Origin: Bacillota bacterium | Lineage (GTDB): Bacteria; Bacillota; Clostridia; Peptostreptococcales; Anaerovoracaceae | Assembly: GCA_017557505.1 (NCBI GenBank) | Contig: JAFYYP010000035.1 | Location: forward strand, 1-55,447 | Length of the DNA: 55,447 nt | Direction: 5' to 3' | The notes under the pieces: generated by a model | Seen by the model: only the letters and a program-made list of their open reading frames with translations | The model's database searches: none | Told to the model about the DNA's origin: nothing | Position numbers and translations under genes: made by a program | Part shown: piece by piece, positions 3,950 through 53,303 of the stretch | How the letters are laid out: the number at the start of each line of letters is the position of its first letter | Numbering within the stretch: position 1 is the first letter of the stretch

Positions 3950-4480
3950 TTACTGGTTCTTTTCGACCTGGGACTTGTAGATCTGTTCCTTGACTTCGTT
4001 TCTGGAGGTCGCGATGTTCGCGTTGATCTTTTCGAACGTCGCCTGCAGATCGTCGTACATATCGGTGAAGTACGTGGCGTACATCTGGTCTACCTTCTCC
4101 TGCAGGTTGTACAGCATGGAATCGGTGTAGTCGAGGATGGACATCTTCATGACCTGGGAGTTCTCCTGTGCGATGCGCAGGATCTCGTCGGCTCTGGCCT
4201 TCGCCTTGACGGTGATCTCGTCGTTTTCGACGAGGGCGTCCGCCTTCTGGCGCGCTTCGGTCAGGATGGACTCGTACTCGGCCTTGGCTTCGTCCAGGAT
4301 GCGCTGTCTTTCGTTCTTGATCCACTGCGCCTGCTGGATCTCATCAGGGAGCTCCAGGCGGATCTCCTTGACGATCTCGGTGATCTCGTTGGGATCGACC
4401 ATGACCTTGCGTACGACAGGAATGGGAGACGCTACTTCGATGATCTCGTCCAGTTCGTCCAGTAATTCTAAAACTTTCAT
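3950..4480 (-). CDS. Conserved coiled-coil protein of the coaD-tmcAL cluster
   Basis: This 176-residue, highly charged, mostly helical protein has no membrane segment. The middle (about 50-110: NERQRILDEAKAEYESILTEARQKADALV and onward) is a long coiled coil of the kind seen in F/V-ATPase stalk subunits, and homologues at this locus are often labelled ATPase or V-ATPase subunit H-like for that reason. Nothing here indicates ATP binding. The conserved N-terminal MKVLELLDELDEIIE is typical of the clostridial family. It lies 10 nt from coaD and 12 nt from tmcAL, so it is cotranscribed with them. The function is unknown; a DivIVA-like or scaffold role is possible but unproven. Confidence 0.75.
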   Translation of the reverse strand: MKVLELLDELDEIIEVASPIPVVRKVMVDPNEITEIVKEIRLELPDEIQQAQWIKNERQRILDEAKAEYESILTEARQKADALVENDEITVKAKARADEILRIAQENSQVMKMSILDYTDSMLYNLQEKVDQMYATYFTDMYDDLQATFEKINANIATSRNEVKEQIYKSQVEKNQ

Positions 4481-12528: not shown

Positions 12529-12600
12529 GAATGCAACTGGCTGACATTTTACAGTCCCTTTAGTTTTGCGTCGCAGGCTTTCGCCTGGTTTGCCTTTGGA
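12529..12600 (-). promoter_or_regulatory. Cyclic-di-GMP-I (GEMM-I) riboswitch aptamer
   Basis: On the minus strand AAAGGCAAACC is followed by a hairpin AGGC-GAAA-GCCT, then GCGACGCAAA. That is the conserved core of GEMM-I, including the GAAA tetraloop. The distal helix reads AACT...GGGACT...GTCAGCC...AGTT, with AACT/AGTT pairing where many relatives have AGCC/GGTT. GCAA/TTGC closes the base. A terminator follows directly, then a GGDEF gene, the classic regulatory target. Whether ligand turns expression on or off cannot be told from the sequence. Confidence 0.88.
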
Positions 12601-12623
12601 TTCCCTTTATTCAATTCTGCAAA

Positions 12624-50403: not shown

Positions 50404-52050
50404 CTATTTGGAGATCTCGAGCAGGTTGATGAGCGTCTTGTAGATCAGCTCGGGCGTGACGTTGAAGGAGAATCTCTTCTCGATTCTTTCCGTCCATCTG
50501 TGGGCATCCTTACCGAAGGCACCGATGTCCAGGACCGGCAGGTTCAGCTTCTTGATCGTGTCGAACGGCAGATCGTAGGTGATGCCATAGCCGGGCATGT
50601 TGGACTTGAAGGTCTCGACGACGGTCTCGTCGGGCACTGCCGCATAGGACAGGTCGGAGATGTACGGGAAGAACTTCTTGTAGCCGATCTGATAGTCGGT
50701 CTTGGTTTCTGCCACTGCCTTCTGTACGGCCGCGATCAGGTTCTTGTCCTTCTGGCTGCTGCCTTCGATGAACACGTGCGGATAGTACGGGCTGGAGAAG
50801 TAGACAATGACCACAGGCTCGCGGTCGGACCACATGTCGTGGACGTACGCGCAGATCGCGGTGGAGCGGTCTCTGGAATCCATATCGGTCTTCATCAGTT
50901 CTTCGGCCTTCGCCTTGACGAGTTCGTCGAGGTTCGGAACTTCCTTGCGGACAGCGTCCATCAGCTGATCGAAGCTCATTGCTCTGGGCTTAAACGGCAT
51001 CGGCGTGTAATCGCGTCTTGCCATCTCGCAGAACTTCTTGTAGCGCGCGTTCAGGACGTCCATCGTCTCTTCGAAGCACTCTTCAGCGACCTTCAGCATC
51101 TTCTCGAGGATGATCTCGGGGGTGCTGCAGTGCGTGGCGTAGTTGAAGTAGATGGTGGCTGCCTTCGCGGTCTGTACGGAATACTCGGTCTTCAGGTCTC
51201 TCTGCTTCAGCGTGATGGGCGGCAGAGCGACTTCGCCGTCCGCTACGTCTGCGAATTCGGGGTTCAGGTTGACCCGCATGGTGATCGCGGCAGCGATCTG
51301 GTTCGGGTCGAGGCCCTTGAAGGATTCGCCTACGTGCGTCTCCTTGCCGACGATGTAGAACGTGGGCATGGTCTTGCCGACGGTGCCGATGTAGATGTAC
51401 TTGTTCGGGTCACCTTCGTACTCTTCGGTGATGTAGTCCGCGTCGAGCATGGCCAGATACTCGTAGCCTCTCTCCTCTGCCAGACGGACGTAGTCCGGGT
51501 CGCAGTTCAGGACGCCGCCGGAGTTACCCTCTTCGTCGCACACGGCGGAGAAGATCAGGTTGCCTTCGAAGTTCTCGATGTCCTTGGAGATGAGTTCCAT
51601 GACCGCCATGATGGCTGCGTCGCCGGTCTTCATGTCGAACAGGCCGCGGCAGAAAATGTATTCGCCGGACTCGAGGTCTCTCTTCGCCGAGGGAGGCAGT
51701 TCGATCTCCTTGAACTTCTCCATCAGTTCGAACGGGCTGTTCGAATACTCCTGCAGATTGCCGTAGTCGGAGATGCCGACGTGGTCGATGTGTCCGATCA
51801 TGATGACGGTCTTCTTCGAGTTGCCCTTTTCACCCTCCAGAATGGCGGTGCAGCTCTTTCTGCCGATCGGGTCGTTCTTGACGGGAACGAAATACAGGTT
51901 TTCGGGGTGCTTCTTCCAGTAATCCATGCCGGAGAAGATCTCGTAGACCTTGTTCGCCGCGTCGATCTCACCCGGGGTGTCGACGACACTTCTGACCTGA
52001 CCTAAAGCCAGCGCGATCTCTTCTACTCTTTTTGCAACTTCGGGTGTCAT
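50404..52050 (-). CDS. M20 family metallopeptidase (RocB-like), first gene of cluster
   Basis: These 548 residues show MIGHIDHVG (His87, Asp89), CRGLFDMKTG (Asp139) and VCDEEGNSGG (Glu general base), the same layout as the paralogue at 46997. A GAGGAGG ribosome site precedes the ATG. It heads the M20-amidohydrolase-M20-Xer-like run, behind the promoter at 52142-52170 with a palindromic operator. No signal peptide is present, so it acts in the cytoplasm. Confidence 0.85.
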   Translation of the reverse strand: MTPEVAKRVEEIALALGQVRSVVDTPGEIDAANKVYEIFSGMDYWKKHPENLYFVPVKNDPIGRKSCTAILEGEKGNSKKTVIMIGHIDHVGISDYGNLQEYSNSPFELMEKFKEIELPPSAKRDLESGEYIFCRGLFDMKTGDAAIMAVMELISKDIENFEGNLIFSAVCDEEGNSGGVLNCDPDYVRLAEERGYEYLAMLDADYITEEYEGDPNKYIYIGTVGKTMPTFYIVGKETHVGESFKGLDPNQIAAAITMRVNLNPEFADVADGEVALPPITLKQRDLKTEYSVQTAKAATIYFNYATHCSTPEIILEKMLKVAEECFEETMDVLNARYKKFCEMARRDYTPMPFKPRAMSFDQLMDAVRKEVPNLDELVKAKAEELMKTDMDSRDRSTAICAYVHDMWSDREPVVIVYFSSPYYPHVFIEGSSQKDKNLIAAVQKAVAETKTDYQIGYKKFFPYISDLSYAAVPDETVVETFKSNMPGYGITYDLPFDTIKKLNLPVLDIGAFGKDAHRWTERIEKRFSFNVTPELIYKTLINLLEISK

Positions 52051-52102
52051 TATTCTTTCCTCCTCAAAATTAATAATAGACGCTCGTTCTTTCCATCATA
52101 TC

Positions 52103-52170
52103 TGAACATCCATAATATGGATTATGTTCACATACATATTCAGTTTACCTTATTGCGAAAGGCTTTACAA
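52103..52170 (-). promoter_or_regulatory. Promoter and palindromic operator of the M20 cluster
   Basis: Minus-strand TTGTAA (52165-52170), 17 nt and TAAACT (52142-52147). Downstream of the start, TGAACAT (52103-52109) / ATGTTCA (52124-52130) encloses CCATA-A-TATGG (52110-52120), a nested inverted repeat that would block the first transcribed bases when bound. Confidence 0.7.
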
Positions 52171-52219
52171 TTGCTCCGAACCACAAAAAATATTTTAGAA
52201 AATAGTTACGCCGAATGCC

Positions 52220-52248
52220 TTGTAAAACAGCAAAAACTCGTGTAAAAT
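52220..52248 (+). promoter_or_regulatory. Promoter of candidate small RNA
   Basis: TTGTAA (52220-52225), 17 nt and TAAAAT (52243-52248) predict a start near 52255. It is divergent from the M20 cluster promoter. Confidence 0.68.
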
Positions 52249-52254
52249 CCTAGG

Positions 52255-52350
52255 TGAATGGCTATCCCCCCGATGGCCATACAGATCTCTAATCCCAATA
52301 CCCCTTTTGAACAAAAGACGCTGCCCCCCTGCAGCGTCTTTTGTTTTTTT
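52255..52350 (+). ncRNA. Candidate C-rich-loop small RNA
   Basis: About 95 nt lie between a promoter and an intrinsic terminator, with no ORF. Hairpin 1 (52258-52280) is ATGGCTATC / GATGGCCAT, 9 bp with one G-U pair, and a loop of five C. Hairpin 2 is the terminator ACAAAAGACGCTGC (52311-52324) / GCAGCGTCTTTTGT (52331-52344), 14 bp, loop CCCCCT, followed by T7. The linker has further CCC and CCCC runs. C-rich loops that pair with Shine-Dalgarno sequences mark regulatory RNAs such as RsaE and FsrA in Gram-positives. It does not match SRP RNA, 6S RNA or known riboswitches by eye. Confidence 0.6.
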
Positions 52351-52352
52351 GA

Positions 52353-52358
52353 TATAAT
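52353..52358 (+). promoter_or_regulatory. -10 box of the YprB-like gene
   Basis: TATAAT ends 6 nt before the ATG, with spacer AAGACC identical to that of the YkgJ-like gene. The -35 is poor and overlaps the sRNA terminator. It implies a leaderless mRNA. Confidence 0.55.
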
Positions 52359-52364
52359 AAGACC

Positions 52365-53303
52365 ATGTTCAACAGCACGTATTTCCGCGAACTGAATACC
52401 ACGGTCTTCGATATCGAGACCACGGGTCTGTTCCACTCCCGCGACTGCATCATCAACGCGGGGTTCTGCAGCCCTGACGGGACGGTCTGGCAGAATTTCA
52501 CGGAAGATCCGGCAGACGAAGCGAGAGTCGTCGAAGAAGCGCTGGAGATGATCTCTCAGGCGGACGCCGTCGTCACGTACAACGGCGACACGTTCGACCT
52601 GCCTTTCCTGCTGCGCAGAGCCCAGAAATACGGGCTTTGCGAGCGTCTGCCCCTTTTATGGAGCGTCGATCTGTACCGCTGGCTCAAGAAGTACTGGCCC
52701 GGCGCGGCGTCCATGAAGAGCATGTCGCAGAAGTCGGTCGAAGAAGCGTTCGGCCTGTCCGAACGGCGCACAGACGAGATCCCCGGTGGCGACTGCATCC
52801 CGCTGTATAACTACTATCTGCAGACGAAGGACGAAAAGGCAAAAGACACCATCCTGCTGCACAACGCGGACGACGTAAGACAGCTTGCCCGCATCGCCTT
52901 CAAATGCAACTTTCTGCCCTATCACGACATCGCGTTCCGCGAAGGATTCCTGTTCAAGGCGGGGTCACGCAAGATCCTGACGAAAGGTTCCGCATTCAAA
53001 AAGAACGCCCTTGTCACGGACGTCCGTCTCGAAAAAGGCCTTCTGCCCGTCTCTGCCTACGAAGACCAGTATCATCTCGAATACGACATGTTCACGGGCA
53101 AAGCCACCCTTGAGATCTTTCCGGCCGAAAAAGAAGGCTTCCTGTACGTCGATCTCGAGAAGATCCCCGGAGCTGCCGAAACATGCAAAGAGCTCCCGGC
53201 CTTCCACAGCGGATACCTGATCCTTGCGGAAAACGGAGAGCCCGGCACAAGAGCCTGCAACGCGCTTACAAAAGCGGCCTTAAGCGCCTATTTCAACGAT
53301 TAG
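52365..53303 (+). CDS. YprB-like ribonuclease H-fold 3'-5' exonuclease
   Basis: This 312-residue protein has the DEDD exonuclease motifs FDIETTG (Asp16, Glu18), YNGDTFDLPFL (Asp78) and HNADDVRQL (His166, Asp169/170), as in YprB ribonuclease H-like proteins. The C-terminal ~110 residues are a beta-rich extension of unknown role. No ribosome site precedes the ATG. It converges on the small membrane-protein gene, overlapping its stop by 4 nt. Confidence 0.82.
   Translation: MFNSTYFRELNTTVFDIETTGLFHSRDCIINAGFCSPDGTVWQNFTEDPADEARVVEEALEMISQADAVVTYNGDTFDLPFLLRRAQKYGLCERLPLLWSVDLYRWLKKYWPGAASMKSMSQKSVEEAFGLSERRTDEIPGGDCIPLYNYYLQTKDEKAKDTILLHNADDVRQLARIAFKCNFLPYHDIAFREGFLFKAGSRKILTKGSAFKKNALVTDVRLEKGLLPVSAYEDQYHLEYDMFTGKATLEIFPAEKEGFLYVDLEKIPGAAETCKELPAFHSGYLILAENGEPGTRACNALTKAALSAYFND

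Follow-up and report, generated by a model that had tools for sequence, protein, structure and literature searches.

A conserved C-rich small RNA candidate of the Peptostreptococcales with a possible link to Spo0A

The DNA analysed here (the window) is a stretch of 55,447 nucleotides from a Clostridia assembly (GCA_017557505.1, contig JAFYYP010000035.1), and at positions 52255-52350 of its forward strand it carries a compact unit that is probably the gene of a free-standing, trans-acting small RNA (sRNA) of about 95 nt. The letters of this locus were inspected directly, folded, and compared with 200 dinucleotide shuffles. A predicted sigma-A-type promoter, TTGTAA-17-TAAAAT (52220..52248, +), has its -35 element at 52220-52225 and its -10 element at 52243-52248, separated by a 17-nt spacer; it matches the consensus at 9/12 positions, its -35/-10 register recurs in same-genus relatives, and the region 51500-53200 holds four promoter-like sites (vs 1.2 +/- 1.1 in shuffles). 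Next come a 5' hairpin (hairpin 1; 52258..52280, +) of 9 bp with a CCCCC loop, supported by the fold and by covariation, and an unpaired C-rich linker, GATCTCTAATCCCAATACCCCTTTTGAAC (52284..52312, +), which is near-invariant in relatives and is likely the main seed. The unit ends in an intrinsic terminator (52309..52350, +) consisting of a 16-bp stem (52309-52346) that covaries in relatives, a CCCCCT loop, and a run of seven T (52344-52350). The minimum free energy of the window RNA is -37.8 kcal/mol, compared with -12.2 +/- 2.8 in the shuffles, none of which is as low (z -9.3). A preliminary description of the window had named the promoter, the hairpin with its C5 loop, the single-stranded linker, the terminator with its CCCCCT loop and the T7 run, all of which hold in sequence and fold, except that the terminator stem was given as 14 bp and folds as 16 bp. 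The locus is intergenic and non-coding, with a promoter and an intrinsic terminator of its own as far as the letters can tell.

Homologues of this locus are found in many families of the order Peptostreptococcales. When 61 genomes were searched by blastn, clear matches appeared within the window's genus (G006 excepted), elsewhere in its family, and in further families of the order. A covariance model built from hairpin 1 and the linker of 28 sequences matches 221/297 genomes in the order sample at E<=0.01 (208 at E<=0.001), mostly once per genome and with a lowest E of 4e-22. Among the 12 family labels in the order, 10 have a match at E<=1e-5; families f2 and f5 have weak matches only, spurious-looking where inspected. 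Among 291 genomes sampled from the class, 16 match, eight of them inside the order; of the eight outside, one is convincing (G455, E 3.7e-15), one plausible (G576), and six spurious by eye. In a sample of 249 genomes from the phylum, searched with large-sample filters that lose some weak matches, the window's own genome is alone in matching at E<=0.001. The family is thus shared by most sampled Peptostreptococcales genomes and nearly absent from the class and phylum samples. A linker-pattern scan of named genomes returned at least 119 stretches, with a few chance matches likely among them; the matches listed include Clostridioides difficile (HC132, CD160), Romboutsia, Tissierella, Anaerosalibacter, Emergencia timonensis, Mogibacterium and others. 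The NCBI taxonomy places C. difficile, E. timonensis and Mogibacterium in Peptostreptococcales, the latter two in Anaerovoracaceae, which is probably the family labelled f1 here, the label of the window's own family. Tandem copies of the sRNA occur in one genus about 198 bp apart, with three on one contig (G275, C105) and a pair 198-199 bp apart in G108 (L079/L108). Before later counts we removed spurious-looking weak model matches (L071, L073-L078, L098-L106), duplicates (L002, L061, L063, L064, L067), the weak L095, two loci at which the locator chose a place other than the pattern match (L163, L186), and a spo0A locus (L228).

Because homologues in many families have covarying stems, the locus is more than a chance arrangement of letters. 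Hairpin 1 has a covariation score of 0.288, reached by none of 500 shuffles (which ignore relatedness) and exceeding slid controls (0.02-0.13); over the whole RNA, 14/16 consensus pairs show double changes, and in the terminator the letters differ among relatives while the pairing is retained. The strongest conservation lies in the linker, AUCUCUAnUCCCAAUACCCCUUUU, in which the majority base averages 94% over the core, with one position free, vs 42-44% in the flanks, as computed on 160 distinct members, none of them chosen by linker pattern. The preliminary description had put the weight on two C-loops, with the proviso that loops varying freely in relatives would speak against it. Hairpin 1 fits that emphasis in most members, its C-run reaching at least four in 199/231 distinct members (25 scored below three, although two of these, L068 and L083, contain C5 by eye; one scored three, and six yielded no hairpin in the scan). 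The terminator loop does not: in a simple scan its C-run reaches four in 36/79 f1 members (26 without a terminator call) and in 8/64 elsewhere (13 without a call), so that outside f1 it varies as the proviso had foreseen, and it can be ruled out as a general second seed. Many members with a C-poor hairpin 1 are Mogibacterium-like and have an unrelated stem; 18/26 of the C-poor rows were fetched by linker pattern, so their intact linker reflects selection, but C-poor members found by the model (L084, L086 and L091 among them) independently retain it. As the terminator-loop C-run is frequent only in f1 and the hairpin-1 C-run is missing in the Mogibacterium-like group, it is the linker, rather than the two loops together, that is constant in the family. 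The locus thereby has the conserved, unpaired C-rich seed expected of a trans-encoded C-rich antisense sRNA: the earlier reading was right on the general class and misplaced its emphasis, and the conservation and the link to Spo0A come in addition.

That link comes from the promoters, which look sigma-A type and carry TGTCG(A) in the -35/-10 spacer or just upstream of -35, in reversed orientation in some f1 genomes. This motif forms the core of TGTCGAA, the Spo0A box, in which Spo0A contacts G2, C4 and G5 (PMC3485338; this and the other papers cited by accession are drawn on from excerpts). We scored Spo0A by the Spo0A_C domain over the 297 order genomes (strong, E<=1e-30; weak, 1e-10 to 1e-30; otherwise none) and counted boxes in 148 promoters less seven with under 60 nt upstream. 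TGTCG or its complement CGACA is present in 53/55 Spo0A-strong promoters outside f1 and in 14/36 inside it; within f1, none of the 15 Spo0A-weak and 29 Spo0A-none promoters has it (14/36 vs 0/44, Fisher p 2.5e-6), and outside f1 it occurs in 1/2 weak and 3/4 none. Allowing one mismatch to TGTCGAA, the box is found in 20/36 Spo0A-strong f1 promoters vs 2/44 others, or 11/19 vs 1/20 when counted by f1 genus (p 4e-4), and in the Spo0A-strong set exact TGTCGAA (28/98 promoters) ranks first among 630 letter permutations. The box expected of Spo0A regulon members is seen as a statistical excess among promoters of Spo0A-encoding genomes, not in every one, and not in the window itself: there CGCCGAA (52209..52215, +) occupies the place where part of the Spo0A-encoding f1 relatives have TGTCGAA and is possibly a decayed box, although with two mismatches it is by itself no better than chance. 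Spo0A_C was found in none of three genomes of the window's genus (G000, G002, G005), the window genome being 87% complete. Judging from position, a box in the spacer suggests repression and one adjacent to -35 suggests activation. The conserved TGTCG could instead be the site of a regulator other than Spo0A, which we regard as the best of the alternatives and still unlikely. Its placement in the -35/-10 spacer in many families, unusual for an activator, would fit such a regulator, as would its retention in three of the four non-f1 genomes lacking a detected Spo0A; two of the three (G111 and G113) have Spo0A in same-genus relatives, so an assembly gap is possible there, an explanation that does not extend to G047. 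Against another regulator, TGTCG fits the bases that Spo0A contacts and the box tracks the presence of Spo0A within f1.

The C-runs had been said to complement ribosome sites, and hexamers complementary to linker and loops are indeed enriched where translation begins: among 792 open reading frames (ORFs), AAGGGG lies in 31 start regions (vs 4 upstream and 1 inside genes) and AGGGGG in 35 (vs 2 and 2), an enrichment expected in part for any C-rich RNA. One plausible target, on sequence grounds, is spo0A. The spo0A genes of the order (L359-L378, L407) use a run of G5-G7 as ribosome site, which is rare among other genes. A G-run of at least five precedes the start in 18/18 resolved in-order spo0A genes vs 59/1151 background starts; this comparison is not fully matched, since the choice of spo0A starts favoured a G-rich upstream region and background starts were taken for their resemblance to AGGAGG or G6, and the spo0A genes share ancestry. 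Left out as unresolved were 3/21 in-order genes and 8/29 out-of-order ones (by eye L363 has G4 and L373 G5). Hairpin 1 forms a median of seven contiguous Watson-Crick pairs with the spo0A site of its own genome, in the top 5% of background starts in 10/16 (computed for 16 of the 18 resolved in-order genes).

The linker was followed separately, by searching 41 genomes on both strands for its complement AAGGGGTAT lying 1-10 nt before an ATG. In eight same-genus genomes there were 20 sites vs 1 for the reversed pattern, a control that does not match the bias of ribosome sites. The 19 regions holding same-genus sites include two gene families each in two species, one of these families apparently lying inside a longer frame; no target is claimed from them. 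Two window genes, starting near 4480(-) and 26558(-), have G-run ribosome sites and are leads only. Such sites are also frequent in genes flanking the sRNA in other families (LUD-like, 10/25 homologues; asparaginase-like, 9/44; L027 and L107, names by sequence reading). As to a helper protein, Hfq was detected in 0/25 f1 genomes (G000-G024), several of them incomplete, vs 11/16 in other families, and since no Hfq was detected in f1, the RNA would probably work without it in the window's lineage.

Taking these results together, we consider it probable, though well short of certain, that the locus encodes a C-rich antisense sRNA whose linker pairs with G-rich ribosome sites and which is controlled by Spo0A in spore formers. 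Its starting points are computed: the conservation, the covariation, the correlation between box and Spo0A, and the G-run spo0A sites. The transcript would begin just before hairpin 1 and end at the intrinsic terminator; the unpaired linker, aided in most members by the C-run of the hairpin-1 loop, would pair with G-rich ribosome-binding sites and lower the translation of a set of mRNAs, by analogy with RoxS/RsaE or FsrA. In spore formers Spo0A would directly control transcription through 0A boxes beside -35 or between -35 and -10, and spo0A, with its G-run ribosome site in the order, would be a candidate target, which would make the circuit a feedback loop. The RNA persists in the window's lineage, where neither Spo0A nor Hfq was found, so other targets and an Hfq-independent action would be called for there. 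A bolder version, which we hold only tentatively, makes this an ancient feedback arm: Spo0A would bind the sRNA promoter, the C-loop would pair with the G-run site of spo0A and so tune Spo0A, and lineages losing Spo0A and Hfq would have redirected the linker to vegetative targets.

Several results weigh against this reading. Double-sided changes in 5/9 pairs of hairpin 1 are also reached by 92/500 shuffles, and C. difficile HC132 has a 5' hairpin that is no more stable than shuffles (z -0.22). Among f1 Spo0A-positive promoters, 22/36 lack TGTCG. Outside the order, too, 6/21 resolved spo0A genes have a G-run site, in genomes that lack a covariance-model match (this set comprises 29 loci, out of 30 obtained from 83 positive genomes). 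The pairing of hairpin 1 with spo0A is matched by 0/200 composition shuffles but equalled by 19/200 shuffles that retain the C5 run, and is thus not clearly specific; pairing of spo0A through the linker, also considered, finds no support, as the linker does not favour spo0A. Outside the genus the AAGGGGTAT search shows no clear excess over its reversed control (51 vs 42 in 17 other f1 genomes, 124 vs 110 in 16 genomes of other families), so that the global translational repressor suggested earlier remains conjectural. Since several f1 assemblies are incomplete (87% complete for the window's), the absence of Spo0A or Hfq is not certain in them. Finally, expression, the direction of Spo0A control, base-pairing and targets are steps that we infer.

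A related alternative is that the RNA, instead of pairing with mRNAs, acts as a decoy and titrates a C-binding protein or a G-rich sponge RNA; we judge this somewhat less likely again than a different regulator. Near-invariance over about 24 nt exceeds what a short seed usually needs, and this counts in favour of a decoy. A G-rich sponge RNA of C-rich sRNAs, RosA, does exist in B. subtilis (PMC8216469). No protein partner or sponge has been identified for the present RNA, and none was searched for.

The neighbourhood bears on whether the RNA is free-standing at all. At 203 loci (some genomes counted twice) the nearest neighbours form 64 clusters; one of these, that of the window's RNase_H_2-type protein (Pfam), supplies the downstream gene at 94/203 loci, and at 43/203 the downstream gene is asparaginase-like (by sequence reading). 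The downstream gene is conserved within clades, which leaves room for a linked role and so tells against a purely free-standing RNA. The element might instead be a 5' leader or attenuator, whose terminator would halt transcription of the RNase H-like gene (in the window) or the asparaginase gene (in other families) unless a signal opens it. Such an arrangement would agree with the co-orientation of 159/192 downstream ORFs and the dominance of one gene family per clade. We nevertheless think it improbable, as the same RNA core precedes different downstream genes, the terminator letters change while pairing persists, five folded members show no common antiterminator pairing, and the downstream gene of the window has its own TATAAT 6 nt before the ATG. 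A cis leader is also disfavoured by 33/192 loci having a downstream ORF, at which that gene lies on the opposite strand; these include a Mogibacterium-like group and C. difficile HC132, in which the RNA is flanked by genes for a cysteine desulfurase-like protein and an ABC transporter ATPase, both on the other strand. As for a short peptide (frame ISNPNTPFE...) encoded across hairpin, linker and terminator, with conservation of the DNA reflecting coding, the absence of any ORF claimed earlier is literally wrong, a mechanical 45-aa frame spanning 52258-52395 in the window, but only 107/231 distinct members give it a start codon and keep it open through the linker, and the missing start or closed frame in the other 124, together with single-base variation in C-run length and in the spacing from hairpin 1 to linker, and compensatory stem changes, leads us to dismiss the small-protein reading as very improbable.

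The TATAAT of the RNase H-like gene directly downstream (window 52353-52370) recurs in the same placement in same-genus loci L003, L005 and L007; from its position, a leaderless start of this gene directly after the sRNA terminator is possible. Elsewhere the window contains a c-di-GMP-I riboswitch (12529-12604, -; 54.2 bits).

Among known RNAs, Rfam 15 has no family at gathering score for the window locus, and of the earlier reading the part that stands is an sRNA-like gene, conserved and with exposed C-runs, that no such family covers; a scan of ten relatives, flanks included, gave nothing at E<=1 but a tRNA and a plastid element. LhrC (RF00616), a Listeria family by its Rfam name, is the best Rfam resemblance, with a C-rich linker and a terminator loop carrying UCCC/CCCUUUU, but the window scores 25.5 bits against a cut-off of 110 (E 0.079), with nothing in the ten relatives, and membership is rejected. 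RoxS/RsaE (RF01820) is rejected likewise (20.3 bits vs 79, E 0.37; nothing at E<=1 in the relatives): it shares a 5' hairpin, an unpaired C-rich segment with UCCC/CCCC and a terminator, and RoxS pairs with Shine-Dalgarno sequences, but its promoter is tied to ResDE (PMC8216469) and the present one is linked to Spo0A. CsfG and FsrA of B. subtilis are C-rich sRNAs too; CsfG is specific to sporulation, and its paper's title calls it highly conserved among endospore formers (PMC8216469). The name CsfG refers to its control by sigma-F and sigma-G, whereas the promoters here look sigma-A-like, a separation by description only. In C. difficile, SpoY, which binds by pairing to the ribosome site of spo0A and prefers G-rich motifs resembling ribosome-binding sites (PMC10267692), is a known precedent for sRNA action at that site. 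SpoY is derived from a 5'UTR, with a start shared with CDIF630_00827, and the long SpoX is antisense to nc037 (PMC10267692); the homologue described here is free-standing, a distinction by genome context that does not exclude identity by sequence. The family is not described in the excerpts of four C. difficile RNA papers (PMC3649979, PMC7438776, PMC11651100, PMC10602386), nor did literature searches return a description of it; supplementary tables lay outside this scope, so an existing catalogue may list its C. difficile copy. It is, then, a new family of the C-rich antisense class, not a member of RsaE or LhrC, and apparently uncatalogued.

According to a C. difficile study, sRNAs are rarely found outside their own genus or family (PMC11706538); if the present reading is true, an sRNA with a near-invariant seed of about 24 nt across many families would be unusual. 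The order that includes C. difficile gains a candidate core sRNA, for which there is now a covariance model that works, along with a predicted regulator and a target open to testing. If the Spo0A link is true, it would add a post-transcriptional arm to the control of sporulation, the window's lineage would offer a natural case of an sRNA that has outlived its regulator and, apparently, Hfq, and the sRNA may link Spo0A, the sporulation master switch, to the control of protein synthesis.
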